This document shows, in pieces, positions 22,594 to 46,808 of a stretch of DNA of 64,000 nt. Location: the NCBI RefSeq assembly GCF_008807415.1, contig NZ_CP043626.1, forward strand, positions 558,001 through 622,000, read 5' to 3'. Under the pieces are notes generated by a model. That model had not been told where the DNA came from. It saw only the letters and a program-made list of their open reading frames with translations, and did no database searches. Both the position numbers and the translations under genes were made by a program. Position 1 is the stretch's first letter; every line of letters starts with the position of its first letter. This DNA is from Pseudomonas denitrificans (nom. rej.) (GTDB lineage Bacteria; Pseudomonadota; Gammaproteobacteria; Pseudomonadales; Pseudomonadaceae).

Positions 22594-23958
22594 ATGAGCG
22601 CTTCCCCTGCGCCAGCGAGCGCGCTCAAGCCCAGCCTGGGCGTGCTCGACGTAGTCGCGATCACCGTCTCGGCGGTCACCCCCGCCAGCTCCGTTTTCGT
22701 CATCGCCCCCTTCGCCATCCAGCAGGCCGGCAGCGGCGCCTTCCTGGCCTTCGTCTTCGCCGGCTTCCTGGCCCTGATGTTCGCCTGGTGCTATGCCGAA
22801 CTCGGCCGCGCGCACAGCTCCGCTGGTGGCGAGTATGTCTACGCCAAGCGCGTGTTCGGTGGTCTCGCCGGCTACGCCACCTTCCTTACTGTGCTGGTCT
22901 CGCTGCTGTTCATCCCGCCGGTACTAGCGACGGGCGCGGCGACCTACCTGAACAACGCCCTGGGGACGAGCTTCGACACCCAGACCGTCGCCCTGGTGAT
23001 AGTCGCCGCCAGCTACGTGCTGGGCATCCTCAACATCCGCGTGAACGCCTGGATCACCGGCGTGTTCCTGCTCTGCGAAGTGGCGGCGCTGCTGGTGATC
23101 GTGGTGCTCGGCTTCGGCCACGTCAGCCAGCCGGTGAGCGTGCTGGTGCAGCCGCAGCACATCGACGGCGGGATACTGGCCGCTGCGCCCTGGGCGCTGG
23201 TGATCGGCGCCGTGGGCACCGCGCTGTTCTCCTACAACGGCTTCGGCGGCGCAGTGCTGCTGGCCGAGGACATGAAGTGCGGCGGGCGCAATGTGCACCG
23301 CGCGGTGATCTGGTCGCTGGTACTGGTGGTGGCGATCGAGATCGTCCCGCTGACCGCGCTGCTGCTGGGCGCGCCTTCTCTGCAGGAGATGATCGCCAGC
23401 CCCGATCCGGTCGGCTACCTGCTCACCGCCCACGGCAATGCAACGCTGTCGCGGCTGGTCAGCGCCGGCATCTTCCTCTCGGTGTTCAACGCCATCGTCG
23501 CCATCGTCATCCAGGTCGGTCGGGTGATCTTCAGCAGCGGCCGCGACGAGCTGTGGACGCCATTGATGAACCGCGCCTTCACCCGCATCCACCCGCGCTG
23601 GGAGTCGCCGTGGATCGCCACGCTGTTCCTCGGCGTGCCCTCGGCGGCGCTGAGCTTCAGCTCGAACCTGGAGGAGCTGACCTCCTTCACTGTGCTGCTG
23701 CTGGTGATGGTCTACCTGGTGGTGGCGCTCTGCGCGCTGTTCAGCCGCGTACTGCGCCGCGACCGTGAACACCCTTACCGCATGCCGCTGTGGCCGCTGC
23801 CGGCGATGCTGGCGGTGGTCGGCGCCGGCTACCTGTTGCTCAACCTGCTACTGGACGCCTCTTCGCGGGACGTCATGATCATTGTCGGGATACTGGCCGT
23901 GTCGGTGATTCTCTACAGCACCTACGGCAAGCTCAGTCCGGCCTTCCAGAAGCTCTGA
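22594..23958 (+). CDS. APC-family amino acid permease
   Basis: Inner-membrane amino acid/amine transporter of the APC superfamily, 454 aa, about 12 helices. It opens with SLGVLDVVAITVSAVTPASS and the glycine-rich first re-entrant helix, then CYAELGRAHSSAGGEYVYAK, the classic APC helix 2-3 signature. The substrate cannot be deduced. The gene is 20 bp from bapF and would feed it: an operon of uptake plus beta-aminopeptidase suggests import of a peptide or amide that the peptidase splits. The GAGGA ahead of the ATG is well placed. Confidence 0.88.
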   Translation: MSASPAPASALKPSLGVLDVVAITVSAVTPASSVFVIAPFAIQQAGSGAFLAFVFAGFLALMFAWCYAELGRAHSSAGGEYVYAKRVFGGLAGYATFLTVLVSLLFIPPVLATGAATYLNNALGTSFDTQTVALVIVAASYVLGILNIRVNAWITGVFLLCEVAALLVIVVLGFGHVSQPVSVLVQPQHIDGGILAAAPWALVIGAVGTALFSYNGFGGAVLLAEDMKCGGRNVHRAVIWSLVLVVAIEIVPLTALLLGAPSLQEMIASPDPVGYLLTAHGNATLSRLVSAGIFLSVFNAIVAIVIQVGRVIFSSGRDELWTPLMNRAFTRIHPRWESPWIATLFLGVPSAALSFSSNLEELTSFTVLLLVMVYLVVALCALFSRVLRRDREHPYRMPLWPLPAMLAVVGAGYLLLNLLLDASSRDVMIIVGILAVSVILYSTYGKLSPAFQKL

Positions 23959-23978
23959 TACCCCTCCAAGGAGACAGC

Positions 23979-25076
23979 ATGCGCGCTCGTCAACTCGGCA
24001 TCACCCTCGGCCTGGGCACTCCCGGCGAGTTCAACGCCATCACCGATGTTCCCGGCATCCGCGTCGGCCACAGCACCCTGATCGGCGAGCATGACGGCAA
24101 GGCCGTGCGCACCGGCGTCACGGTAGTGCAACCCCGTGACGGCGCAGCGCGCCAGCAACCCTGCTTCGCCGGCTGCCACGTGCTCAATGGCAACGGCGAC
24201 GCCACCGGGCTTGAGTGGATTCGCGAGGCAGGGCTGCTGACCACGCCCATCGCCATCACCAACACCCACAGCGTGGGCACGGTGCGCGATGCGCTGATCG
24301 CCGCCGAACATGCCGAACTGGCGGACCCGTCGATCTACTGGTGCATGCCGGTGGTGATGGAAACCTACGACGGGCTGCTCAACGACATCTGGGGCCAGCA
24401 CATCGGCGCCGAACAGGTGCGCGAGGCGCTGGCCGCGGCTGAATCCGGTCCGGTGCGGGAGGGGCCGGTGGGCGGCGGCACGGGGATGATCTGCCACGAG
24501 TTCAAGGGCGGCATTGGCACCTCCTCGCGCAAGCTGCCGATGGAGCAGGGCGGCTGGACCGTGGGCGCGCTGGTACAGGCCAACCATGGCCAGCGTCGCG
24601 AGTTGCGGGTGGATGGTTACCCGGTCGGCCGCCAGCTGGGCGACCTGCCGTCACCCTTCGCCGAGCAGGGCACGCCGGGCATGGGCTCCATCGTGGTGAT
24701 CCTCGCCACTGACGCGCCGCTGTTGCCGCACCAGTGCCAGCGCCTGGCGCAGCGTGCTTCGCTGGGGATCGCCCGCACGGGGGGCGGCACCGACGACTCC
24801 AGCGGCGACATCTTCCTCGCCTTCGCCACCGGTAACCGCGACCTGCCGCCGGCAGACTATGGGCGCAAGGACCTGCCTTTCGCCACGGCGCTGGAAATGC
24901 TCAACAACGACCACATCTCGCCGCTGTTCTCCGCCGCCGCCGAGGCAGTGGAGGAAGCCATCGTCAACGTGCTGCTGGCCGGCAAGGACATGCGCACCGA
25001 TGACGGCGTGCTGGTGCCGGCGTTGAGTGGGGAGCGCCTGCTGGCCGCGCTGCGCGAGGTCGGTTGGAAGGGATGA
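23979..25076 (+). CDS. bapF: DmpA/BapF-type beta-aminopeptidase (P1 family)
   Basis: N-terminal nucleophile hydrolase of family P1/S58 that removes N-terminal beta-amino acids (and in DmpA some L/D-alpha residues). The 365-aa precursor should cut itself between G236 and S237 in GTPGMGSIVVILATDAPLLP, giving alpha (1-236) and beta (237-365) chains with S237 as nucleophile. Supporting motifs are ITDVPGIRVGHSTL near the start, GGGTGMICHEFKGGIGTSSR, and ARTGGGTDDSSGDIFLAF. Start ATG at 23979 has AAGGAGA ahead; the reading frame stays open upstream inside the permease gene. From memory PAO1 PA1486 is BapF in the same gene order. No signal peptide, so cytoplasmic. Confidence 0.9.
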   Translation: MRARQLGITLGLGTPGEFNAITDVPGIRVGHSTLIGEHDGKAVRTGVTVVQPRDGAARQQPCFAGCHVLNGNGDATGLEWIREAGLLTTPIAITNTHSVGTVRDALIAAEHAELADPSIYWCMPVVMETYDGLLNDIWGQHIGAEQVREALAAAESGPVREGPVGGGTGMICHEFKGGIGTSSRKLPMEQGGWTVGALVQANHGQRRELRVDGYPVGRQLGDLPSPFAEQGTPGMGSIVVILATDAPLLPHQCQRLAQRASLGIARTGGGTDDSSGDIFLAFATGNRDLPPADYGRKDLPFATALEMLNNDHISPLFSAAAEAVEEAIVNVLLAGKDMRTDDGVLVPALSGERLLAALREVGWKG

Positions 25077-25208: not shown

Positions 25209-26624
25209 TCAGCGCCAACCGCGGCTACGGCCGATGGCATCGCTGAAGCGCGCCTGCCATTGCTCCGCGGTCGCCTTGTCGATCTTCGGGCGGAACTCGG
25301 TGCAGGTGTTGCGCGGAGCTTTCAGCTCAACGCCCAGGCCGCGCGCCGCCAGCGCAGCACAGCCGAACGCGGTGAGCTCGTCGAAGCGTTGCGTGGTGAT
25401 GTGGCGCTGCAGAATATCGGCGAGGAACTGTGCGAAGTAGGGACTCCGGGCCAGGCCGCCGTCGATGGAGAGGCGGTCGGTGACGGTCAGGAAACCATCC
25501 ATCGAGCGGATCACCTCCGCGCTGCGCAGGGCGACGCCCTCCAGCAGTGCCTGGCACATGTCCTCGCGGGTGGTGGCGGCGTTCATGCCCAGCCAGAGTG
25601 CTCCGGCGCTGCGGTCCCAGTGCGGACAGGCGAGCCCGGACAACGCAGGGACAAACGCCAGCCCGCGACTGATGGCTGCCGGCTGGTCGAATCCGGCGAG
25701 CTCGGAGACATCGCTGAACAACCCCAGCCGCCCGGCCCACTCGACGGCGGCGCTGGCGTCGTACACGCCGCCATCCATGGCATAGACGGGTTTGCCGTCG
25801 AGCTGCCAGGCGATGGTGGCGAGCAGGCCGTTTTCCGGCGAACGAATGATGCGGTCGCCGCTGAGCGTCAGAGCGAAGGCGCCGGTGCCGAAGGTGATCT
25901 TGGCATCGCCGGGCTGGCGGCAGCCATGCCCGTAAAGGGACGCTTGCTGGTCGACCACCGAGGCGGTCACCGGCGTCACACCGATGTCGCCGAAGTACCC
26001 GACGGTATCGCGGATTTCCGGCAGCGCCTCGATCGGCACGCCGAACAGGGCGCACAAGTCCGGGTCCCATTGCCCGCTGGAGAGATTCATCAGCGAGGTG
26101 CGTGAAGCAGTGGTGACGTCCGTGGCGTAAACCCCGGTCAGGCGGTCGAGGAACCAGGCATCGCTGGTGCCCAGGCGCAGTCGCCCTGTCGCCAGCGCAT
26201 CACGCGCGGCGGGCAGATGCTCGATGATCCAGGCCAGCTTGCTGGCCGAGAAGTAGGCGTCCAGCGGCAGGCCTGCTCGTTCCAGCGTCAGTGCTTCGCC
26301 GCCCTGGGCGCGCAGCTCCTCGATGCGCCCGGTGGTGCGGTTGTCCTGCCAGACGATCAGGGGCGAAAGCGGCTCACCGCTGCGAGCATCCCAGGCCATG
26401 CAGCTTTCGCCCTGGTTGGCCAGGCCGATGGCGTCGATCGGGCCTGCAGCCTCCAGACAGCTCTGCAGATTGGCCAGCAGCTCCAGCGGGTCGTGCTCGA
26501 CCCAGCCGGACTGCGGGTGGTGCTGCCGATGCCGCAAGGCCAGATGAATGTCGGCCGAGCCATCCTGGCCGGTGACCAGAACGCGGGTACTGGTGGTTCC
26601 CTGGTCGAGTGCTGCAATGCGCAT
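25209..26624 (-). CDS. FGGY-family carbohydrate kinase, glycerol-kinase-like
   Basis: ATP-dependent kinase of a polyol-like substrate, 471 aa. The two FGGY domains start with IAALDQGTTSTRVLVTG (phosphate-1 loop) and contain the catalytic Asp in SVVDQQASLYGHG and the ATP loop FGTGAFALTLSGD. Against E. coli glycerol kinase the pocket keeps the Glu (E73), Trp (VWQDNRT), Tyr (LDAYFSASK) and catalytic Asp, but the glycerol-binding Arg is replaced by Gly (G72 in ANQGES). That argues for a substrate other than glycerol. It lies 22 bp downstream of the flavoprotein gene and closes the leftward operon. From memory it corresponds to PAO1 PA1487. Confidence 0.85.
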   Translation of the reverse strand: MRIAALDQGTTSTRVLVTGQDGSADIHLALRHRQHHPQSGWVEHDPLELLANLQSCLEAAGPIDAIGLANQGESCMAWDARSGEPLSPLIVWQDNRTTGRIEELRAQGGEALTLERAGLPLDAYFSASKLAWIIEHLPAARDALATGRLRLGTSDAWFLDRLTGVYATDVTTASRTSLMNLSSGQWDPDLCALFGVPIEALPEIRDTVGYFGDIGVTPVTASVVDQQASLYGHGCRQPGDAKITFGTGAFALTLSGDRIIRSPENGLLATIAWQLDGKPVYAMDGGVYDASAAVEWAGRLGLFSDVSELAGFDQPAAISRGLAFVPALSGLACPHWDRSAGALWLGMNAATTREDMCQALLEGVALRSAEVIRSMDGFLTVTDRLSIDGGLARSPYFAQFLADILQRHITTQRFDELTAFGCAALAARGLGVELKAPRNTCTEFRPKIDKATAEQWQARFSDAIGRSRGWR

Positions 26625-26646
26625 GGCGTGCTCTCTTGGACGATGT

Positions 26647-27879
26647 TCAGCGTGGCAGGAAGGCGATGTCGAGGCGTTGGGCGCTCGCGCTCAGCGGAAG
26701 CTCGCCCAGCGGGATCAGCAGGCGTCGCTCGGGCAGGCAGGAGGTCTGGCGACTCCAGACCTCGCGGCCGTCGAGGCAGACCTGCAAGCGGCCGCTGACG
26801 GCCTGGTCCACGCGCAATTGCAACTGCTGCAGGCCGATCCTGTCGCTGTACACCAGGCGTTGCGGCACACAGAGTTTCAGCGGCGCCGAGCACTTCACGG
26901 TAATGAAGGCATTGGGGGCGGGGAGCGAGTGGCCGAGGTCCTCTGCGATCAGGCCGGCGATCCGCTTGCCTTCGCGGAACGACCAGCCAGCCGTCTCGAT
27001 AGGGCGCAGCAGGTTGCCGGCGGCGAAGTAGCTGGTGTCGGAACAACGGCCGAACTGATCGATGCTCGGGCCGCCGCTGGCCGGGTCCAGGTGCAGGTGG
27101 CTCAGGCGCACCAGGCTGGACTCCGGGGTGAAGCGTCCGGTGAGCAGCACACCATCGCAGTCGAACTCGCGGATACTGCCGTCGGCCTGCCGTACCCGCG
27201 CGGACTCCACGCGGCCGGCTCCCTGGATGTCCAGCAGCTCGCAGCCGAAGTGCATCGGCACGCCGCAGAGTTTCGGGAACAGGCTCAGCGGCCAGCGTGC
27301 GGTGGCGCGCTCACGTTCCTCGATCATCGCCACCGGGCGGATGCCGGCGCGCCGGCAGCTGAGGACCGATGACAGGCTGACCAGTTCGGTGCCGACGATC
27401 AGCGGGCGTTCGAAAGGCTTGAGCCCTTGCAGGTAGAGGTAGGATTGCAGGGCGCCGGTATTGATCACGCCCAAGGGGCGGTCACCGCCGACCAGGCGTG
27501 CCGAGCGGGGCGTCTCCCGCGCGCCGGTGGCCAGCAGGACGCGCCTGGCCTCCACCTTCAGCGGGCCCTCGGGGGTGGCGACTTCCAGATGCCCCAGCAG
27601 CCCCAGGCTGACGACGTTGTGGCGCAGGCGGATGTCCACTCCGGCATTTCGGGCGGTCTCGGCATTGAAACGGGCATAGGCGGGGCCGGTCAGCAACCGG
27701 CCGTATTCGCGAAAACCGAAGGGCGGATGAGCGCAGTGGCGTGGAATGCCGCCGGCTTCGCTCTCGCGCTCCAGTACCATGACCCGGGCAACACCCAGGC
27801 GCTTGAGTTCGATGGCGGCAGCCAGGCCCGCCGGGCCGGAGCCGATGATGGCGACGTCGGTGGTCTCAGTGCGGTTCAT
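26647..27879 (-). CDS. FAD-dependent oxidoreductase, GlpB/HcnB-like subunit
   Basis: Flavoprotein of the Pyr_redox_2 fold, 410 aa. The FAD-binding GxGxxG is near the start (VAIIGSGPAGLAAAIELKRL), the second dinucleotide region is PLIVGTELVSLSSVLSCRR, and the late FAD motif is DTSYFAAGNLLRP. The last 90 residues (from about 320) form an extra beta-rich tail that I cannot assign. In Firmicutes a similar flavoprotein pairs with a GlpA-like dehydrogenase and a DUF1667 protein; here the tail may replace that third piece. The ATG at 27879 overlaps the end of the upstream dehydrogenase by 14 bp, so the two are coupled and probably form one enzyme. Confidence 0.82.
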   Translation of the reverse strand: MNRTETTDVAIIGSGPAGLAAAIELKRLGVARVMVLERESEAGGIPRHCAHPPFGFREYGRLLTGPAYARFNAETARNAGVDIRLRHNVVSLGLLGHLEVATPEGPLKVEARRVLLATGARETPRSARLVGGDRPLGVINTGALQSYLYLQGLKPFERPLIVGTELVSLSSVLSCRRAGIRPVAMIEERERATARWPLSLFPKLCGVPMHFGCELLDIQGAGRVESARVRQADGSIREFDCDGVLLTGRFTPESSLVRLSHLHLDPASGGPSIDQFGRCSDTSYFAAGNLLRPIETAGWSFREGKRIAGLIAEDLGHSLPAPNAFITVKCSAPLKLCVPQRLVYSDRIGLQQLQLRVDQAVSGRLQVCLDGREVWSRQTSCLPERRLLIPLGELPLSASAQRLDIAFLPR

Positions 27880-29275
27880 GGCAGGCCCCGGTGGCAAGTG
27901 GCAGGGCCAGTCGGCCCGCGCTCAGTTCGGCAACCCGCGCGCCGCAGTAGAAGCCCTGGCAACGCCCCATGCAGGCACGGGTGCGCCGTTTCAGTCCGCC
28001 GAAGTCTCCCGGAGGCAGCGGGGCGTCGAGCGCCTCGCGGATCTCCCGTTCGGTGACCATTTCGCAGTGGCAGACAATTTCCCCATAGCCGGCTCGCTGC
28101 CAGTCGCGCGGCAGGTGTTCGGCGAGGTTGGGCAGCTGCGGCCACTGGAGGTCGCCCGGCGGTAAATGGGTTTGCCGCTGGGCATAGAGTCGATGGACAT
28201 GCCGGGCGATACCCAGCGCCGCCGTGAGCCCGGTCGAGCGAATGCCGCCGACGGTGATCCAGTGGCGCTCGGGCAGATCACGAATGCGGTACTCCTTCTT
28301 GTCGCTGGCGGGGCGCAGCCCGGCGTAGGTCGCGGTGACCGGCATGCCGACGAGACCGGGAATGCGCTGCTCGGCGGCCTCCATCAGGTGCTGCAGGGTT
28401 GGCGTTTCCAGGCCAGCGTGTACGCGATCGTCCTGCTCCTCGGCGGTCGGCCCGACCAGCAGGTTGCCGAAGATGGTGCGGGTGAACACGATGCCTTTGG
28501 TGCGCTCGTTGGGCACCGGCAGGATGATGTGGTTGATCAGGCTTGAGGCCGCCTTGTCGTACACCACGAATTGACCCTTGCGGGGATGGATGCGGAAGGC
28601 TGCCTCGCCCAGCAGGCGCTCTTCGAGTACGTCACCGAACAGGCCGGCGCAGTTGATCACGGTGCGGGCCTTCAGCGTGCTGTCGGCCGAACGCAGGGAC
28701 CAGCACTCGCCATCGAACTCGCCGCCGAGGATTTCCGTGCCCAGGCGAACCTCGGCGCCATGCAAAACGGCTTGGCGCAGGTAGGCCAGCGGTGCGGACC
28801 AGGGGTCGATGAGGTGTTCGCCGGGAACCCGCACGGCAGCCAGCGCGCTGCGCGCCAGCGCGGGTTCATAGGTGAGCAGTTCCCTGCCGTCGACCCTGAC
28901 CGTGTCCATGACGCCATTGGCGTGGGCCTGGGCGACTATGCCGTCGAGCCGGGCGAGGTCTTCTTCGCTCCAGGCCACCACCAGGGCTCCGGTTTCCAGC
29001 AGGGGCAGATTCATCTTGCGGTGAATCTCCAGGTACTCCTGGTAACCCTCCTGCATGCAGGCCAGTTCGACGCTGCCCGGCGGCGCATCGAAGCCGGTGT
29101 GGAGGATCGCGCTGTTGCCTTTGCTGGCCCCTGAGAGGATATCGGCGCCACGCTCCAGCAGCACCACTCGCGCACCCTCGAGGGTGAAGCGGCGCGCCAT
29201 GGCGCAGCCCACTACACCGCCACCTATGACGGCGATGTCGAAGGCCGTTTCGGCCTTCGCGGTATGATCGGTCAT
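27866..29275 (-). CDS. GlpA-like FAD dehydrogenase with BFD-type [2Fe-2S] domain
   Basis: Flavin dehydrogenase of the DAO / anaerobic glycerol-3-phosphate dehydrogenase class, 469 aa. FAD-binding starts with FDIAVIGGGVVGCAMARRF; the mid-region SGASKGNSAILHTGFDA and IHPRKGQFVVYDK are typical of GlpA-like and L-2-hydroxyglutarate-type enzymes. The C-terminal BFD-like iron-sulfur domain has four Cys in IVCHCEMVT and ACMGRCQGFYC. It would oxidise the phosphorylated product of the FGGY kinase and pass electrons on through the second flavoprotein. It is the first gene of the leftward operon; two inverted repeats at 29295-29382 lie just upstream. Whether the substrate is glycerol-3-phosphate itself is doubtful, given the kinase pocket. 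Confidence 0.85.
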   Translation of the reverse strand: MTDHTAKAETAFDIAVIGGGVVGCAMARRFTLEGARVVLLERGADILSGASKGNSAILHTGFDAPPGSVELACMQEGYQEYLEIHRKMNLPLLETGALVVAWSEEDLARLDGIVAQAHANGVMDTVRVDGRELLTYEPALARSALAAVRVPGEHLIDPWSAPLAYLRQAVLHGAEVRLGTEILGGEFDGECWSLRSADSTLKARTVINCAGLFGDVLEERLLGEAAFRIHPRKGQFVVYDKAASSLINHIILPVPNERTKGIVFTRTIFGNLLVGPTAEEQDDRVHAGLETPTLQHLMEAAEQRIPGLVGMPVTATYAGLRPASDKKEYRIRDLPERHWITVGGIRSTGLTAALGIARHVHRLYAQRQTHLPPGDLQWPQLPNLAEHLPRDWQRAGYGEIVCHCEMVTEREIREALDAPLPPGDFGGLKRRTRACMGRCQGFYCGARVAELSAGRLALPLATGACHEPH

Positions 29276-29294
29276 TTTATTGACTGTTTCCTGT

Positions 29295-29382
29295 GGTAAC
29301 GCTCCATTTTAGGAGGTTTTGTTACCGTATTGGCGGAGTGGTGTTGAAATTATGTTGTTTTAATGTGGCTTTTAATTTCAAC
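29295..29382. promoter_or_regulatory. Inverted repeats upstream of the GlpA-like gene (candidate DeoR operators)
   Basis: Two palindromes lie between the dehydrogenase and the DeoR regulator. GGTAAC (29295-29300) pairs with GTTACC (29321-29326). GTTGAAATTA (29343-29352) pairs perfectly with TAATTTCAAC (29373-29382), with a centre-to-centre distance of 30 bp, about three helical turns. Their place in front of the operon and next to a DeoR gene makes them likely operators. Binding is inferred. Confidence 0.55.
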
Positions 29383-29422
29383 TCAGTCAACAGCCGATCA
29401 TTCCCTTCGCCTCAGGCTCCGC

Positions 29423-30198
29423 TCAGCTGATCGGGTTGCGAACGGGCGGCACGTGGATCTCGACACCCGCTTCCTGCAAGGCTTCGAGCAGCGCGCCAGT
29501 CGGCGAGCGGTCCACTACCAGGCGGTCGATCCGGTTCAGGGGAAACACCTTGAACAGTGCGCGACGTCCCATTTTCGAGGAGTCGGCAATCACCGTCAGG
29601 GTACGCACCTGGGCAATCATGGCGCGCGCCACTTCGGCCTCCTCGATGGAGAAGTCCATGGCGCCGTCACAGTCCAGGGCGCCGATGGTGATCACCGCGT
29701 GCTCGGCGTTGAACCGGCTGATCTGCTCCAGCGCCAGGGCGCCGACGTTCTGCTGCGATTCGCTGCGGAATTCGCCGCCGATCATGAACACCCGATTGCC
29801 GGACGCCGCCGCCTCGTTGGCGATCAGCAGCGAGTTGGTGATGACCGTCAGGCGATTGAGCCGCGCGAGTTCCCGCCCAGCAGCAGTGTGGTGGTGCCGG
29901 TATCGACGAAGATGCTGTCGCCGGGAGCGAACAGGCCGGCCGTGTAGCGCGCCACCGCGCGCTTTTCCTGGGCATGCTCGTTCAGTCGGGTCTGGAAGGC
30001 GTTCTCGTGCTCGCCACTGGGAGGCAGCGAGGCGCCGCCATGGAACTTGGTGACGTGGCCACCGGCGGCGAGTTCGGCGAGGTCGCGGCGAATGGTTTCC
30101 TGGGATGTGGCGAGCAGGTGCGCCAGTTCATCCACCGACACGCGTTCGCGTTGGCGGAGCAGTTCGAGAATCTGTTGCCGTCTTTCATTGGGGCGCAT
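29423..30198 (-). pseudogene. DeoR-family regulator, frameshifted as sequenced
   Basis: GlpR-like repressor. The N-terminal part (from ATG at 30198) is a clear DeoR helix-turn-helix: RRQQILELLRQRERVSVDEL, then TSQETIRRDLAELAAGG. The sensor domain begins (GDSIFVDTGTTTLLLG) and then runs into a stop; the same domain continues in another frame (ELARLNRLTVITNS ... VFMIGGEFRSES) to the stop at 29423. Adding one base near 29871-29877, inside TCCCGCCC, restores a 258-aa protein of family length. It is divergent from the EutH-like gene and is the likely regulator of the cluster. A real mutation and a sequencing error are both possible; pheS shows the same kind of lesion, which favours error. Confidence 0.85.
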
Positions 30199-30574
30199 GC
30201 GCCGTTCTCCGGATCATTGTCTTGCCACCCACTGGGGCCGTGACTGTTACCAAGGCACACCATTGGGGCGCCCGGCCAGCCGCGCTTTGCACCAGGTGGG
30301 GTGTGCAAGACATGTCTTCTGTACGTTTGGAAAAAATCTCCCACAGCTCTGTAAGGCTTTTCCCTGCTCAGACACGGAAGTCGCTGGCTGTGGTTTTTCC
30401 ATTAATTTAGGCAGTTTAAAACCTCAAATCAACATTAAAACCAAGCGTTGGCACGCTGCGTGCGAGAGAGCATTCGAAGCAACCACAGCCAGAACGACCA
30501 TTCGCCTGACTGGTCGGCAAGCAGCGACGCTGAACGCGTCCATTACAAGACTCGATGAGGGGAGTGCACGGCAG
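30199..30574. promoter_or_regulatory. Regulatory gap between DeoR and EutH-like genes
   Basis: A 376-bp divergent control region. It holds a sigma54-type promoter at 30449-30463 and a direct repeat TTAAAACC at 30416-30423 and 30435-30442 just upstream of it. The middle is AT-rich compared with its surroundings. No gene is seen. Confidence 0.55.
30449..30463 (+). promoter_or_regulatory. Sigma54 promoter of the EutH-like gene
   Basis: TGGCACGCTGCGTGC has GG and GC 10 bp apart and matches the consensus TGGCACG-N4-TTGC except for one base. It is 112 bp upstream of the ATG. It implies RpoN control and therefore an enhancer-binding activator that is not encoded in the cluster. Confidence 0.65.
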
Positions 30575-31807
30575 ATGGCCGAGTTCGGAAATTACGTGAT
30601 CTATCTGATCATGCTGGGGGCCGTCATCGGCGCGCTGGCATCGATACTGCGGCCCGACAGCGGGCTGGGGCGCGAATTCGTCAATGGCATTCACTCCATT
30701 GGCCCGGTGTTCCTGGCCCAGGCCGGGATCATGGTGGCGATCCCTTACCTGTCGAAGCTGATTTCCCATGTGCTGGGGCCGTTCTTCCACGCCCTGGGCT
30801 CGGACGTATCCATTGCGGCGCTATCGATCATCGCGGTCGACATGGGCGGTTATCAGCTGGCTGATGCCCTGACGGCCAATCGTGACATGTGGATCACGGC
30901 GATGCTGGTGGGCTACACCTCGGGCGCCACCATCGTCTATCTCATCCCGGTCGGATTGACGATGCTCGAGCGCAAGGATCACAAGTACCTGGCGCTGGGA
31001 GCGATGGCCGGGCTGATCAGCATTCCCTTCGCGGTGCTGGCGGCGCTGCTGCTGATCACCCTGGGCGAGCTGCCGGTCCGCGAGCTGGTCTCCACCTCTT
31101 CGCCGGCCACGCATTATCTGGCGCTGGACTTCATCGGCATGCTCAAGCTGCTGGCGCCGCTGTTCGTCTTCTGCTTCCTGCTGGCGGCGGGGCTGAAGTA
31201 CCGCGCCAACATGATGGTTTCGGGGTTCCTGGTGTTCGGCAAGATCATGGATGCCTTCATCAAGATCGCCCTGGCCCTGTCCATCGTCGAGCACTTCACC
31301 GGGGTATTCGCCAAGGTCTTCGGCAGCTGGGGGCTCGACCCGATGTTCGCCGACGAGAAGGAACTGATCCGCGCCATCGAGATCGCCGGCTACATCGGCA
31401 TCATGCTCGCCGGTACCTTCCCCATCTGCTACCTGTTCCAGCGTTACTGCAGGAAGCCCATGGAGCTGCTTGGCCGTCAGCTGAACCTGACGCGCATCGG
31501 CGCCACGGCCTTCGTCATGGTGCTGGCGAACATCATCGCCACCTACCACCTGTTCAAGTACATGAACGCGCGCGACAAGGTGCTGTGCGTGGCGCTGGGA
31601 GTCTGCGCCCAGGCCACCATCGGCGATCACCTGGCCTTTACCGCCAACTTCCAGCCCACGCTGATTCTGCCGATCCTGCTCGGCAAGTTGTTTGGTGGTC
31701 TGTTCGCCGTCTTCATCGCCATCAAGATCTCGGTCCCTGCCGCTGAGCGTTTTGCCCTGCAGGACCCGCAGCCCGAGGAACAGGACGGCGCACTGCGCAC
31801 CGCCTGA
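30575..31807 (+). CDS. EutH-like ethanolamine-type permease
   Basis: Inner-membrane transporter of the EutH family (PF04346-like), 410 aa, about ten helices. The family blocks are clear: AVDMGGYQLADALTANRD, the GYTSGATIVYLIPVGLTMLE segment, HKYLALGAMAGLISIPFA and CAQATIGDHLAFTANFQPT. Known EutH proteins admit ethanolamine. No ethanolamine ammonia-lyase or microcompartment gene is nearby; instead it sits with a kinase and dehydrogenase, so the substrate may be another small amino-alcohol or alcohol. The ATG at 30575 was chosen at the start of homology, with AGGGGAG about 12 bases upstream. A sigma54 promoter precedes it. Longer in-frame starts reach into the promoter and were rejected. Confidence 0.85.
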   Translation: MAEFGNYVIYLIMLGAVIGALASILRPDSGLGREFVNGIHSIGPVFLAQAGIMVAIPYLSKLISHVLGPFFHALGSDVSIAALSIIAVDMGGYQLADALTANRDMWITAMLVGYTSGATIVYLIPVGLTMLERKDHKYLALGAMAGLISIPFAVLAALLLITLGELPVRELVSTSSPATHYLALDFIGMLKLLAPLFVFCFLLAAGLKYRANMMVSGFLVFGKIMDAFIKIALALSIVEHFTGVFAKVFGSWGLDPMFADEKELIRAIEIAGYIGIMLAGTFPICYLFQRYCRKPMELLGRQLNLTRIGATAFVMVLANIIATYHLFKYMNARDKVLCVALGVCAQATIGDHLAFTANFQPTLILPILLGKLFGGLFAVFIAIKISVPAAERFALQDPQPEEQDGALRTA

Positions 31808-31873
31808 TCCAACCCTTCCCATAGCCCCGCGCCGGTGATGCCGGCCGGGCGTTTTTCTCTGCAAGAGGTATTC

Positions 31874-32230
31874 ATGCGCAAGATATTCCTGGCCTGCCCC
31901 TACAGCCATGCGGACGCCGCAGTGGTCGAGCAACGCTTCGCGGCCTGCAATCAGGTAGCTGCCGAAATCGTCAAGTCAGGCCATGCGGTCTACAGCCAGG
32001 TGTCCATGTCCCACCCGATCAATCGCTGCCTGCCGGAACTGGACCGGGCGGCCATCGGCAAGATGTGGGGGCCGGTGGATGCGTTCTTCATGGAAGCGCT
32101 GGAGGAATTGGTGGTGCTGGACCTGGAGGGCTGGGACCAGAGCGCCGGTATTCGCCGCGAGATCGAGTTCTTCGAGGCACGTGGGTTGCGGGTCAGTCTG
32201 TGGAGCGAGGTGAAGCACGAGTTTCACTGA
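31874..32230 (+). CDS. DUF1937-family protein
   Basis: Small soluble protein, 118 aa. It starts RKIFLACPYSHADAAVVEQR and continues QVSMSHPINR and VVLDLEGWDQSAGIRREIEF, the pattern of DUF1937 proteins, which share the nucleoside 2-deoxyribosyltransferase-like fold. The GWDQSAGIRREIE segment corresponds to the nucleotide/glycoside-binding and catalytic-Glu region of that fold. The reaction is unknown. It is 66 bp after the EutH-like gene and likely cotranscribed, so it may act on the imported compound or on a derivative of it. The 66-bp repeat and terminator follow. Confidence 0.75.
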   Translation: MRKIFLACPYSHADAAVVEQRFAACNQVAAEIVKSGHAVYSQVSMSHPINRCLPELDRAAIGKMWGPVDAFFMEALEELVVLDLEGWDQSAGIRREIEFFEARGLRVSLWSEVKHEFH

Positions 32231-40151: not shown

Positions 40152-41578
40152 TCAAACTTCCAGTGCCGGCGCCACCGTCTCGATCCGCAGCATGTTGGTG
40201 CTGCCCGGCTGGCCGAAGGGCACGCCGGCGGTGATCACCACGGTGTCGCCACGGCGCGCCATGCGCTGGGCCAGGGCGATGTCCAGGGCGGTGGAGCAGA
40301 TCTCGTCGACGTGGGCGAGCTGCGCGTTGACCACCGAGTGGACGCCCCAGGCCACGGTCAGGCGGCGGGCGGACTTGAGTTGCGGCGTCAGGCTGAGGAT
40401 CGGTGCCTTGGGCCGCTCGCGGGAAGCGCGCAGGGTCGAGGCACCGGACTCGGTGTAGTTCACCAGCACCGCCACCGGCAGGATGCGGCTGATCCGGCGG
40501 ATCGCGCAGCTGATGGCGTCGGAGACGGTGGCGTCCGGTTCCGGGCGGTTGATTTCCAGCGTGGCCTGGTAGTCCGGCTCGGCTTCGACCTGGCGGATGA
40601 TCTTCGCCATCATCTCCACCGCTTCACGCGGGTACTGGCCCGAGGCGCTCTCGGCGCTGAGCATCACGCAGTCGGCGCCTTCGCTGACGGCGTTGGCGAC
40701 GTCGGTCACCTCGGCGCGGGTCGGCGCCGGGGAGAAACGCATGGATTCGAGCATTTGGGTTGCGACCACCACCGGGCGGCCGAGCTGGCGGCAGACCTGG
40801 ATGATGCGCTTCTGGATGCCCGGCACGCTCTCGGCCGGCATCTCCACGCCCAGGTCGCCACGGGCAACCATGATCGCGTCGGACAGCCTGGCGATAGCTT
40901 CGATGGACTGCACCGCCGAGGGCTTCTCGATCTTGGCCATGAGGAAGGCCTTGTCGCCGATCAGCTCGCGGGCTTCCACGATGTCTTCGGGGCGCTGCAC
41001 GAAGGACAGGGCGACCCAGTCCACGCCCAGCTCCAGGCCGAAGGTCAGGTCGCGGCGGTCCTTGGCGGTCAGCGGGCTGAGCTTGAGCACCGCTTCGGGG
41101 ACGTTGACGCCCTTGCGGTCGGACAGCTCGCCGCTGTTCATCACGCGGGTCTCGATGGCGTCGCTATGGGCGTTGAGTACCTGCAGGCGAATCTTGCCGT
41201 CGTCCAGCAGCAGGCTCATGCCCGGCTCCAGCGCCTGGATGATTTCCGGGTGGGGCAGGGTGACGCGCTTGTCGTCGCCCGGTGCGTCGTTCAGGTCGAG
41301 GGTGAAGGTCTGGCCCTTCTGCAGCTGGACCGCACCGTCGGCGAAACGACCCACGCGCAGCTTCGGCCCTTGCAGGTCCATGAGGATGCCGATGGGGTAG
41401 TTCAGTTCGGCTTCCACTTCGCGCACCCAGGCGAAACGCTGGGCGTGGTCGTCGTATTCGCCGTGGCTGAAGTTCAGGCGGAACAGGTTGGCGCCGGCTT
41501 CCACCAGGGCGCGGATGTCGTCGCGGCTTTTGATCGCCGGGCCCAGGGTGGCGAGGATCTTTACTTTTTTATCCGGAG

Positions 41579-41582
<4 letters not shown>
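40152..41582 (-). CDS. pyk: Pyruvate kinase
   Basis: Transfers phosphate from phosphoenolpyruvate to ADP, giving pyruvate and ATP. At 476 aa it has the standard barrel: KILATLGPAIKSRDDIRALV, NFSHGEYDDH (K+/Mg2+ site), the active-site Lys loop FLMAKIEKPSAVQSIEAI, and MVARGDLGVEMP (metal Glu/Asp), with the C-terminal domain ending LRIETVAPALEV. The short allosteric C-domain matches PykF-type enzymes of Pseudomonas (from memory PA1498). It overlaps the glycerate kinase gene by ATGA, so its product follows directly: glycerate to phosphoglycerate, then on to PEP and pyruvate. It is the last gene of the gcl unit. Confidence 0.95.
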
Positions 41583-42850
<1,268 letters not shown>

Positions 42851-43157
42851 GACAGGCTCCGATGATTCTTGTTGTGGTGTTCCATGGCTCAGGCTTCTGT
42901 CTTGCAGAAGGCTCAGCGATGGAATCGAACACCCCGGCCGGCGAGGCCGTATTCCCTACGGCCGGGTGTTCGAGTCGCTTTGCAGCGTGGCGGGCGAGGC
43001 CACTCCCATAACTTCGCCCGTCACTTTGCTCTGTCTGGCGTTATCCGCCGTACAACTTGCTCTTCGTAGGATGGCGTGGAGCGAAGCGATACCCATCGAT
43101 CCCGGTACCGCTGAATGATGGGTATCGCAAGCGCCACCCATCCTACGAATGCCTTTC
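42851..43157. other. 307-bp gap between ttuD and glxR
   Basis: It contains a GGCCGG hairpin near 42930-42965 and a large REP-type inverted repeat at 43064-43148. No gene. The REP lies directly behind glxR and may stabilise the upstream mRNA. Confidence 0.6.
43064..43148. repeat. Large REP-type inverted repeat
   Basis: TTCGTAGGATGGCGTGGAGC at the left pairs with the CGCCACCCATCCTACGAA end at the right; the inner arms GCGATACCCAT and ATGGGTATCGC also pair. It is the full-length version of the single copies at 7549-7586 and 47661-47691. Confidence 0.85.
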
Positions 43158-44048
43158 TCAATCCTTGCGGATGGAGAAGTTGGCCATGTGCTCCAGGCCC
43201 TTGATCAGGCCGGAGTGGTCCCAGTTGCTGCCGCCGATGGCCGCGCAGGTGCTGAACACCTGTTGGGCGTTGGCGGTGTTGGGCAGGTTCAGGCCCAGTT
43301 CGCGAGCACCGGCCAGGGCCAGGTTGAGGTCCTTCTGGTGCAGGCTGATGCGGAAGCCCGGATCGAAGGTGCCCTTGACCATGCGGTCGCCGTGCACTTC
43401 GAGAATGCGCGAGGAGGCGAAGCCGCCCATCAGCGCTTCACGTACCTTGGCCGGGTCGGCGCCATTCTTCGCAGCGAACAGCAGGGCTTCGGCAACAGCC
43501 TGGATGTTCAGGGCGACGATGATCTGGTTGGCTACCTTGGCGGTCTGGCCATCGCCATTGCCGCCGACGCGGGTGATGTTCTTGCCCATGGCCTGGAACA
43601 GCGGCAGGGCGCGTTCGAAGGTGTTCGGGCAGCCGCCGACCATGATGCTCAGGGAAGCAGCCTTGGCGCCGACTTCACCGCCGGATACCGGGGCGTCCAG
43701 GTACTGCGCGCCGGTGGCCTTGATCTTCTCGGCGAAGGTCTTGGTGGCGGTGGGGGAGATCGAACTCATGTCGATCACCACCTTGTTCGGGCCCACGCCT
43801 TCGGCGATGCCGTCCTTGCGGAAAAGCACGTCTTCGACCTGCGGGGTGTCCGGGACCATCACGATGATGAACTCGGCTTCCTGGGCGACTTCCTTGGGGT
43901 TGGCCAGGCCGATGGCGCCGGCTTCGACCAGGGCCGCCGGGGCTGCGTCGTGGTGGGTGGAAACGAAGATCTGGTGACCGGCTTTCTGCAGGTTCTGCGC
44001 CATGGGCAGGCCCATGATGCCGGTGCCGATGAATCCGATTTTGGCCAT
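43158..44048 (-). CDS. glxR: Tartronate semialdehyde reductase (2-hydroxy-3-oxopropionate reductase)
   Basis: Reduces tartronate semialdehyde to D-glycerate with NAD(P)H, 296 aa. The Rossmann opening is KIGFIGTGIMGLPMAQNLQ; the 3-hydroxyisobutyrate-type signature is VIDMSSISPTATKTFAEK with YLDAPVSGGEVGA, and the catalytic Lys lies in TAKVANQIIVALNIQA. AGGAG is well placed before the ATG. Third in the order gcl-hyi-glxR, 69 bp after hyi. Known role: removal of the product of glyoxylate carboligase. Confidence 0.94.
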   Translation of the reverse strand: MAKIGFIGTGIMGLPMAQNLQKAGHQIFVSTHHDAAPAALVEAGAIGLANPKEVAQEAEFIIVMVPDTPQVEDVLFRKDGIAEGVGPNKVVIDMSSISPTATKTFAEKIKATGAQYLDAPVSGGEVGAKAASLSIMVGGCPNTFERALPLFQAMGKNITRVGGNGDGQTAKVANQIIVALNIQAVAEALLFAAKNGADPAKVREALMGGFASSRILEVHGDRMVKGTFDPGFRISLHQKDLNLALAGARELGLNLPNTANAQQVFSTCAAIGGSNWDHSGLIKGLEHMANFSIRKD

Positions 44049-44117
44049 GAGGAGTTCTCCTGGTTGTTCTTGTTAGGCTGGCTGGCGCAGTGCGTACCCA
44101 CCGCGCCGGCCGGCGAA

Positions 44118-44900
44118 TCAGATGACGTTGTGGCTTTTGAGCCAGCCGAGGCCGGCTTCGGTGGTGGTCTTGGGCTTGTATTCGCAGCCGATCCAGCCGC
44201 GGTAGCCGATGCGGTCCAGGTGATCGAACAGGAAGCGGTAGTTGATCTCGCCGGTGCCCGGCTCGTGGCGGCCGGGGTTGTCGGCCAACTGCACGTGGTT
44301 GATCGAGGCGAGGTTCTTCTCGATGGTCCGCGCCAGGTCACCTTCCATGATCTGCATGTGGTAGATGTCGTACTGCAGGAACAGGTTGGCGCTGCCGACC
44401 TTCTCGCGGATGTCCTGGGCCTGCTTGGTGGTCTGCAGGTAGAAGCCGGGAATGTCGAGGGTGTTGATCATTTCCATGACCAGCTTGATGCCCGCGGCTT
44501 CGAGCTTGCCCGCCGCGTACTCCAGGTTGTTCAGGAAGGTGTTCTCGATGGTCGCGCAGTCGTGGCCCTGCGGGCGGATGCCGGCCAGGCAGTTGACCTG
44601 GGTGTTGCCCAGCACCTTGGCGTAGGCGATGGCCTTGTCGACGCCGGCGCGGAATTCCTCGACGCGGTCCGGGTGGCAGGCGATGCCGCGCTCGCCTTTC
44701 GACCAGTCGCCGGCCGGCAGGTTGAACAGCACTTGTTCGAGCTTGTTGGCGTCCAGGCGGGCCTTGATCACCTCGGCCTCGACGTCATACGGAAAGAGGT
44801 ACTCGACACCGCTGAAACCGGCGCGCGCGGCGGCTTCGAAGCGGTCGAGGAAGTCCACCTCGGTGAACAGCATGGACAGGTTGGCGCAGAAACGGGGCAT
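44118..44900 (-). CDS. hyi: Hydroxypyruvate isomerase
   Basis: Interconverts hydroxypyruvate and tartronate semialdehyde, 260 aa TIM barrel of the xylose-isomerase-like (AP endonuclease 2) fold. It begins FCANLSMLFTEVDFLDRFEA and carries the metal-binding Glu in KLVMEMINTLDIPGFYL, Asp/His in LQYDIYHMQIMEGD, HVQLADNPGRHEPGTG and the terminal Glu in YRGWIGCEYKPKTTTEAGL. The ATG at 44900 has AGGAGTG ahead. It is 132 bp after gcl and belongs to the same unit. Confidence 0.94.
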   Translation of the reverse strand: MPRFCANLSMLFTEVDFLDRFEAAARAGFSGVEYLFPYDVEAEVIKARLDANKLEQVLFNLPAGDWSKGERGIACHPDRVEEFRAGVDKAIAYAKVLGNTQVNCLAGIRPQGHDCATIENTFLNNLEYAAGKLEAAGIKLVMEMINTLDIPGFYLQTTKQAQDIREKVGSANLFLQYDIYHMQIMEGDLARTIEKNLASINHVQLADNPGRHEPGTGEINYRFLFDHLDRIGYRGWIGCEYKPKTTTEAGLGWLKSHNVI

Positions 44901-45032
44901 GGGGTCACTCCTGTTGAACGGGTGGTGCGTGGCGCTCGGCTTCCTGATGAAAGAGAGCAGGGGGTGGGGGACTCTCCGCCAGGAAATATCCACCCCCTGC
45001 TCCTCCCCGAAGGGAGGAGTCGTTCGGATCTA

Positions 45033-46808
<1,776 letters not shown>

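Follow-up and report, generated by a model that had tools for sequence, protein, structure and literature searches.

What does a bacterium take up and oxidize with a relative of glycerol kinase, two flavoproteins and an ethanolamine-type permease that are encoded side by side? The question is raised by a block of six genes in Pseudomonas denitrificans (nom. rej.), located in a 64,000-nucleotide stretch of DNA referred to here as the window (bases 558001-622000 of the 6.88 Mb single-contig genome, NZ_CP043626.1). An original prediction made from the letters of the window alone had named an FGGY kinase, two flavoproteins, a DeoR regulator, an EutH-like permease and a DUF1937 protein. All six were found at their places as open reading frames with family profile matches (Table 1), and the predicted set of uptake, kinase and flavin-dependent dehydrogenase is borne out by the gene content. 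A link between the cluster and ethanolamine is supported by the genes that adjoin the same core in other species. The reading that we favor, held at somewhat below even confidence, is that the block serves the catabolism of an ethanolamine-type amino alcohol, with ethanolamine itself as the most likely substrate. Ethanolamine is a common membrane-lipid nutrient in guts, soils, and the sea. If this reading is true, genes annotated as "glycerol kinase" and "oxidoreductase" form a further ethanolamine route, and PA1487-PA1492 of P. aeruginosa gains a testable function.

A widespread gene core

A scan with one genome per species returned 281 places, of which the best 80 loci were kept and form the basis of the counts out of 80. 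These best 80 comprise 19 Pseudomonas-type loci, followed by Halotalea, Paraburkholderia, many Alphaproteobacteria, Deltaproteobacteria, and metagenome-assembled genomes (MAGs). Of the 80, 77 contain the flavoprotein partner, 57 the FGGY kinase, and 54 DeoR at the thresholds set, many loci being cut by contig ends; among the loci of at least 15 kb, the kinase was present in 48 of 55. The GlpA-like flavoprotein, its partner, the kinase, and DeoR occur together in 19/19 Pseudomonas-type loci, so the arrangement exceeds chance. Judged by gene content, the core consists of DeoR, the GlpA-like flavoprotein, the NOX-like flavoprotein, and the FGGY kinase.

Within Pseudomonadaceae, the GlpA-like gene was found in 11 of 398 genomes, including the one studied here; the genus of the latter contributes two (itself and P. 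pseudonitroreducens, G013). In a phylum sample, a relative was found in 4 of 398 genomes, again including our own, and the other three carry an FGGY kinase. Plasmid records with the core come from Tistrella, Roseomonas, Agrobacterium, Chelatococcus, Paracoccus, Rhizobium, Mesorhizobium, Streptomyces, and others (14 of 18 matches read, 10 annotated at least partly and 4 by comparison; H2, H15, H16, and H17 left out). Because the spread includes Alphaproteobacteria, Deltaproteobacteria, and Streptomyces, the core is no Pseudomonas invention. The conserved Pseudomonas pathway that the original prediction held possible thus gives way to a module that is patchy in Pseudomonadaceae and reaches far beyond it. 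A record titled Pantoea sp. Ap-967 (L045) also carries a Pseudomonas-type block, with a kinase 79% identical, and is counted among the 19.

The similar block in P. aeruginosa named in the original prediction does exist: an annotated plasmid record has the same gene order, and the P. aeruginosa kinase cluster, at 85% identity, counts 1327 member sequences. The plasmid records NZ_CP131792.1 (L133) and NZ_CP133752.1 of P. aeruginosa carry this chromosomal-looking region; identity to the window is 73% for the GlpA-like protein and 85% for the P. aeruginosa kinase. In the accessible parts of the papers concerned, PA1487 is an FGGY kinase (PMC8151288), PA1490 is a transcriptional regulator (PMC4199492), PA1492 is the structure 1T1J (PMC7308715), and PA1489 appears once as a slightly changed protein and once in a figure title. 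No paper describing this cluster was found by gene name, family name, or theme in the open-access literature, subscription papers being largely outside it, which agrees with the earlier statement that no pathway with this exact set was known to its author.

A glycerol kinase relative with an altered pocket

The kinase of the block aligns with GlpK over its whole length and is labelled "glycerol kinase" by several sources. It scores 418.5 bits against the GlpK profile TIGR01311, whose cut-off is 590.35, and therefore falls outside GlpK. Cluster kinases matched by coordinates in 26 of 28 genomes score 349-456 bits against the same cut-off of 590; the loci of the other two genomes, L077 and L083, hold no kinase. 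Canonical GlpK above the cut-off is additionally present in 24 of the 28 genomes, and in the other four no kinase passes it.

The main difference lies at Arg83, which we take to be a glycerol-binding residue, following E. coli GlpK for numbering and pocket roles. This position is Gly in 74/74 cluster kinases (58 plus 16 further, two of them from Streptomyces) and Arg in 16/16 canonical GlpKs, a set consisting of that of the own genome and 15 of the 24 found. Near the catalytic Asp, Gly241 is replaced by Ala and Gly244 by Val in 58/58 cluster kinases. Most of the pocket of this FGGY relative is retained: Glu84, Trp103, Tyr135, Asp245, Gln246, and Phe270 are kept when the 58 are compared with the 16 canonical GlpKs, and the NQGE motif is present in 58/58 as well as in 16/16 further cluster kinases. 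The differing kinase pocket that had been noticed at the outset is thus upheld, and by profile score and residues, the cluster kinase is evidently not a canonical GlpK.

A pocket that has lost a positive charge and retained an acidic residue with aromatic walls would suit a small amino alcohol. According to the accessible part of PMC12410723, Csal_0678 and CqsR bind ethanolamine in sites that combine an acidic platform with aromatic residues. Even if they prove to act on a compound related to ethanolamine or glycerol, kinases with Gly in place of Arg83 should not be named glycerol kinases untested. A third FGGY kinase of the own genome, at position 3039345 (L110), adjoins a GlpD-like-looking gene.

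A flavoprotein pair resembling glycerol-3-phosphate dehydrogenases

The GlpA-like flavoprotein has GlpO (4X9M) as its best sequence match in the PDB. The closest NCBIfam model is that of type 2 glycerol-3-phosphate (G3P) oxidase, at 184.6 bits and far under the cut-off of 460, and the GlpA model TIGR03377 gives 121.8 bits against a cut-off of 552.8; identity to E. coli GlpA is 26.5%. Cysteines 402, 404, 439, and 444 of the BFD domain are present in 85/85 aligned GlpA-like flavoproteins. His59, kept in 84/85, aligns with GlpO and L2HGDH and is absent from the two glycine oxidases compared. Glu153, Tyr329, Arg346, and Thr348 are invariant in the cluster flavoproteins, whereas three clostridial relatives have Ser/Ala, Phe, Glu/Lys/Asp, and Pro, respectively; one of the three has an annotated DUF1667 neighbor, and the others are taken to be like it.

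The second flavoprotein is 26% identical over 408 residues to the NOX-like partner in an R. albus trio with DUF1667 (L151), and BLAST gave no significant match to E. coli GlpB. The earlier "GlpB/HcnB-like" label is replaced by this whole-length match; for HcnB the rejection rests on the R. albus protein, HcnB itself having stood outside the comparison. A plain GlpABC system is likewise ruled out, by the profile cut-offs and the partner protein. It shares with the block a DAO plus BFD subunit and a second flavoprotein; in contrast, the block has no GlpC-like gene (no gene is left over), no significant GlpB match, and only the low identity to GlpA given above.

Near kin are the GlpTk-NOX-MOX G3P dehydrogenases, in which, according to the accessible part of PMC11962113, a DAO-type flavoprotein with BFD-type cysteines neighbors a NOX-like flavoprotein, as is found here. 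The R. albus trio, taken as of this type, is 31% identical in the GlpA-like protein and 26% in the partner. The block differs in lacking a DUF1667-like third gene between or beside the flavoprotein genes (DUF1667 was not searched genome-wide), in residues 153, 329, 346, and 348, and in the company of a non-canonical kinase and EutH. Because of the similarity to GlpO, the kept His and Cys residues, the changed invariant residues, and the NOX-like partner, the flavoprotein resembles a dehydrogenase of the G3P type that would act on a phosphomonoester and whose pocket has changed.

Ethanolamine-type uptake and ethanolamine enzymes beside the core

EutH adjoins the core in 16 of the 19 Pseudomonas-type loci, and the remaining three have an APC-type permease (amino acid-polyamine-organocation type) instead. 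APC-type permeases likewise adjoin the core in Hyphomicrobium, Acidisoma, Rhizobiaceae-type plasmids, and Streptomyces. A tripartite ATP-independent periplasmic (TRAP) transporter stands beside the core in 7 of 80 loci and on plasmids of Tistrella, Chelatococcus, Paracoccus, Rhizobium, and Neorhizobium, with one further genome. Its binding protein matches Csal_0678 (PDB 4UAB/4XF5) with 443 bits in Chelatococcus (next PDB match 63) and 468 bits in Desulfuromusa (next 55). At 12 further places, represented by 14 loci because two of them are duplicated, the identity is 70-88%. By these scores, the core-adjacent binding protein is clearly a predicted Csal_0678 orthologue, which occurs in 7 of 80 genome loci and 5 plasmid loci. 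In the parts of the sources available, Csal_0678 binds ethanolamine in the crystal (PMC12410723), and Phaeobacter EtoX binds it with a Kd of 7.9 uM and does not bind phosphoethanolamine, glycerol-1-phosphate, G3P, or phosphocholine (PMC10132767).

Two other kinds of EutH were encountered. A different paralogue (49% identical) lies between short-chain-dehydrogenase-like and LuxR-type regulator genes in L023, L024, and L025 (G004, G003, and G001), and a third type (32%) belongs to eut-microcompartment-like operons (L026 and L027).

Enzymes of known ethanolamine routes also adjoin the core. EutB and EutC are encoded near it in Thioclava, Salipiger, and, by annotation, Chelatococcus. In Desulfuromusa kysingii and the delta MAG LH_M62, a longer eut operon that begins with the TRAP genes is divergent from DeoR and the core. 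EutA, EutB, and EutC of D. kysingii score above the NCBIfam cut-offs, and its acetaldehyde dehydrogenase is just under (601.5 vs 620.1 bits); its other eut genes, and those of LH_M62 except EutB, were named by look. EutB therefore lies beside the core in five species in all. A EutB survey of 65 genomes (28, with four near cases, plus 37 that added one, again Salipiger bermudensis, by coordinates; 15 of the 80 loci lay outside it) found EutB in 30 genomes. In 5 of these, representing 4 species, it lies at most 14 kb from the kinase; two of the four species were known before the survey. With 30 kb of about 4 Mb taken as near, approximately 0.2 such cases would be expected by chance, compared with the 5 seen. 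Of the 55 loci that reach 15 kb, 23 carry an ethanolamine marker.

One further context resembles a second known route. In Paracoccus albus, orthologous TRAP genes lie beside the core with a glutamine-synthetase-family gene, an aldehyde dehydrogenase, and an iron alcohol dehydrogenase. This is the gene content given for the ethanolamine gamma-glutamylation operon in the accessible part of PMC10132767, matched by content and not by sequence. Upstream of the core, one genome has an APC permease together with a distant glutamine-synthetase-like gene (30%) and a related aldehyde dehydrogenase (55%). In the genomes of L075, L083, L094, and L099, all of them MAGs, EutB was not found and the best gamma-glutamylase match is 33-35%, although the TRAP protein is encoded close to the GlpA-like gene. 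We count these four genomes in favor of the ethanolamine reading, and likewise the ExaC above cut-off that lies within about 12 kb of the kinase in L096 and L101.

The window block itself has no EutBC and no gamma-glutamylase, for which the best match in the own genome is 34%. None of its six genes is a pyridoxal-phosphate-dependent phospho-lyase, for which no dedicated search was made. The original prediction had stressed an EutH without an ethanolamine lyase. This stands for the block, but in other species a lyase or ethanolamine-type uptake adjoins the same core, and the own genome has EutB elsewhere, with lookalikes (by look) of an Eat-type permease and EutC beside it; an intact EutB lies at 2941812.

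The block thus shares with eut systems an EutH-family permease above the NF011668 cut-off and, in five species, a nearby EutB; it differs in having no lyase, and its kinase and flavoproteins are not eut genes. With the gamma-glutamylation operon (EtoVWX/ETAGA, PMC10132767; GlnA4, PMC6529630; both as far as the accessible parts describe it), it shares the TRAP binding protein family and the similar set in Paracoccus albus; in contrast, neither the window block nor, closely, the own genome has the gamma-glutamylase.

Proposed pathway

These contexts lead us to a more specific proposal, which is a little more tentative than the general reading. It is a phosphorylating, cobalamin-independent ethanolamine route built from glycerol-pathway enzymes, in which an FGGY ethanolamine kinase is followed by a two-flavin, iron-sulfur phosphoethanolamine dehydrogenase. 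It could operate by itself or next to the lyase and gamma-glutamylation routes, with its supply coming from ethanolamine transporters or from glycerophosphodiester import. We infer the substrate, both reactions, and the repression by DeoR. The amino alcohol would be imported by EutH; in other lineages this task would fall to the TRAP transporter of the ethanolamine type, or perhaps to an APC-type permease. The FGGY kinase would phosphorylate its hydroxyl group, yielding O-phosphoethanolamine, and the GlpA-like flavoprotein would oxidize the carbon adjoining CH2-O-phosphate, converting phosphoethanolamine to glycolaldehyde phosphate and ammonia. Electrons would pass through the [2Fe-2S] domain of this flavoprotein, with the NOX-like flavoprotein as partner. 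DeoR would repress the module, and DUF1937 would be accessory. In lineages where ATP-binding cassette (ABC) genes and a phosphoesterase of the calcineurin type adjoin the core, an imported glycerophosphodiester could be the source of the phosphomonoester; this would account for the lack of the kinase at some of these loci. As a candidate substrate of the flavoprotein, phosphoethanolamine agrees jointly with the ethanolamine transporters, with the change in the kinase, and with the loci that have the phosphoesterase. G3P is the best fit to the fold and the worst to the kinase, and serinol phosphate fits the fold and the transporters and not the phosphoesterase loci.

Several observations weigh against ethanolamine as the substrate. 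In the DNA covered, as many as 54 of the 80 loci have none of EutH, the TRAP protein, EutB, or gamma-glutamylase, and 26 carry at least one. EutB was not found in 35 of the 65 surveyed genomes and is near the core in just 5 of the 30 that hold it; where EutBC does lie beside the core, it would be redundant. The best family matches of the APC-type permeases, whose link to ethanolamine is presumed, are other APC subfamilies. No consistently present enzyme for glycolaldehyde phosphate was found across the loci. The flavoprotein retains His59, the His aligned with GlpO and L2HGDH, and it keeps residues aligned with what we presume to be the G3P-phosphate contacts of GlpO. A Mesorhizobium operon with a choline/ethanolamine-kinase-family gene in the place of the FGGY kinase is suggestive of ethanolamine, but the flavoprotein beside this other kinase is only 39% identical, has Thr at the His position, and may act on something else; no second case of this variant was found in the phylum sample of 398 genomes. 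Finally, PAO1 carries the block, and yet, in the section of a review available, loss of eatR blocks eut induction and ethanolamine use. Since ethanolamine use is abolished, the block alone does not support growth of PAO1 on ethanolamine under the conditions used.

Competing explanations

The strongest competitor, unlikely on present evidence and nonetheless a serious one, divides a phospholipid head group into two halves. The core would be the G3P/glycerol branch (glycerol kinase, then G3P to dihydroxyacetone phosphate), and ethanolamine genes would keep beside it as glycerophosphoethanolamine releases both products. Such a role would account for the UgpB-like ABC operons divergent from the core in L096 (Poseidonocella) and L101 (Mangrovicoccus), where the genome's sole ExaC-type acetaldehyde dehydrogenase above cut-off lies approximately 12 kb from the kinase; the UgpB-like protein of L096 scores 354 bits against a cut-off of 411. 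It would also suit the calcineurin-type phosphoesterase present in 9 of 80 loci, mostly with ABC genes, and the PhoU-type gene that adjoins the core in L065, with related genes in L071, L077, and L092. Among the 55 loci that reach 15 kb, 7 gave no kinase at the threshold; the phosphoesterase is present in four of these seven (L065, L077, L100, and L104), in L104 together with a divergent FGGY kinase at 38%. The flavoprotein, moreover, is nearest to GlpO among solved structures. A glycerol branch is difficult to reconcile with the invariant change of kinase Arg83 to Gly although 24 of 28 genomes hold canonical GlpK, and with flavoprotein positions 153, 329, 346, and 348, which are invariant and unlike those of clostridial relatives. 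In addition, the core occurs with an ethanolamine-type TRAP transporter and neither EutB nor gamma-glutamylase in the DNA read at L075, L083, L094, L099, L134, L142, L147, and L154.

Improbable, and more so than the head-group explanation, is an amino-diol such as serinol (2-amino-1,3-propanediol) or 3-amino-1,2-propanediol as the compound that is phosphorylated and then oxidized. It would combine glycerol and ethanolamine in one molecule, matching glycerol-type enzymes with ethanolamine-type uptake, and the serinol route would yield dihydroxyacetone phosphate and ammonia, needing no further enzyme. It leaves the phosphoesterase and ABC contexts unexplained, and the co-located enzymes are for ethanolamine itself. 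Furthermore, we know of no abundant natural source of either amino-diol. The PAO1 eatR result, as given in the review section mentioned above, is compatible with an amino-diol, and an ethanolamine receptor binds serinol too, according to the accessible part of its source.

A further explanation concerns only the genome studied here. Its DeoR gene is broken by a one-base frameshift, with the helix-turn-helix part at 29848-30198 (116 aa) and the sensor part at 29423-29791 (122 aa), whereas DeoR is in a single frame in 19/19 Pseudomonas-type loci, one of them aligned to the window. The DeoR gene of the original prediction is therefore present but split, the frameshift having been overlooked. The frameshift is either a real mutation or a sequence error. 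A study of hypermutable P. aeruginosa lists PA1490, the same regulator, as one of the genes that contain G/C repeats, according to the accessible part of PMC4199492. With its regulator broken, unless the sequence was misread, this strain may express the module constitutively. That the module is decaying here, with a genuine frameshift and the remainder under weak constraint, is quite improbable. A second EutB copy of the own genome (6288225-6289513; L112 and L113; outside the window), with permease and EutC lookalikes beside it, is likewise split in two frames, but sequencing errors could also account for both split genes, and the five other genes of the block are full-length and 83-93% identical to those of P. 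pseudonitroreducens.

A second, ordinary glycerol system is the least probable explanation: the naming of the kinase, the listing of PA1487 among possible glycerol kinases in the accessible part of PMC8151288, the rest of the glycerol pocket, and the four of 28 genomes in which no kinase passes the GlpK cut-off and the cluster kinase could serve speak for it, but scores below that cut-off, the invariant Gly at Arg83, and the ethanolamine transporters and lyases that adjoin the core in part of the loci speak against it.

Layout of the block and accessory genes

The kinase, both flavoproteins, and DeoR are encoded on the minus strand, and EutH and DUF1937 are divergent on the plus strand (Table 1). 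The two flavoprotein genes overlap by 14 bases. The window kinase is 99% identical to one of Pseudomonas sp. PDM20 and 92% to that of P. pseudonitroreducens, which places the window close to species of the P. nitroreducens type. In the divergent promoter region, the 9-mer TGTGGTTTT at 30389-30397 is common to 11 of 17 EutH and 7 of 20 GlpA-like upstream regions, the window included and counted without a control, and may be considered a weak candidate operator.

Table 1. Features of the block, in window coordinates
Feature	Position	Strand	Family evidence and remarks
FGGY-family kinase, 471 aa	25209-26624	-	PF00370/PF02782; GlpK relative scoring under the GlpK cut-off
FAD/NAD(P)-binding flavoprotein, 410 aa, NOX-like partner	26647-27879	-	PF07992; start set at ATG 27879
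GlpA/GlpO/GlpTk-like flavoprotein, 469 aa, C-terminal BFD [2Fe-2S] domain	27866-29275	-	PF01266 + PF04324
DeoR/GlpR-type regulator, frameshifted	29423-30198	-	PF08220 and PF00455 on separate open reading frames
Divergent promoter region with weak candidate operator	30199-30574		Intergenic, between DeoR and EutH
EutH-family permease, 410 aa	30575-31807	+	PF04346, 378 bits; NF011668, 677 bits (cut-off 575)
DUF1937 protein, 118 aa, N-ribosyltransferase-like clan	31874-32230	+	PF09152, 139 bits

DUF1937 has 1T1J as its sole PDB match (E 6e-61). An S-x-G-x3-E motif (Glu96), the glutamate of which we take to be that of the N-ribosyltransferase clan, is present in 21/21 cluster copies. The gene accompanies the core in Pseudomonas and in Rhizobiaceae-type plasmids, and it is found in 18 of the 19 Pseudomonas-type loci whichever permease is present, the 19th (L035) ending with EutH. 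Because of the kept motif and this co-occurrence, DUF1937 may be a pathway enzyme. The uncharacterised structure PA1492 is placed in the N-ribosyltransferase superfamily in the accessible part of PMC7308715.

Some neighbors were considered and set aside. A DmpA-type peptidase and an APC permease (22594-25076) are not counted in the system; they neighbor the core in the window, L028, and P. aeruginosa and were not seen in the other 18 Pseudomonas-type loci, some of which are cut. Gamma-glutamyltranspeptidase (6 of 80 loci by threshold, 7 by clustering), penicillin amidase (L087), and RraA-like, aldehyde dehydrogenase, and AsnC/CtaG neighbors are too inconsistent. A glycolate/glyoxylate fate of the product was also set aside as too sparse, with three gene kinds at one locus each by threshold.

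Scattered hints of glycolate or glyoxylate metabolism were nevertheless seen: an FAD_oxidase_C protein by DeoR (L105), hydroxy-acid oxidases (L138 and L141), fructose-bisphosphate aldolase and fructose-bisphosphatase (L136), and gcl-type genes near the window block. In L136, a plasmid of Agrobacterium HAMBI 105, the core, DUF1937, and a permease are followed by the aldolase and bisphosphatase genes and preceded by creatininase- and nitrilase-family genes. Approximately 8 kb from the block, at 40152-46769 of the window, lie lookalikes of pyruvate kinase, glycerate kinase, tartronate semialdehyde reductase, Hyi, and glyoxylate carboligase; these names rest on appearance and on a paper about PA1498-PA1502.

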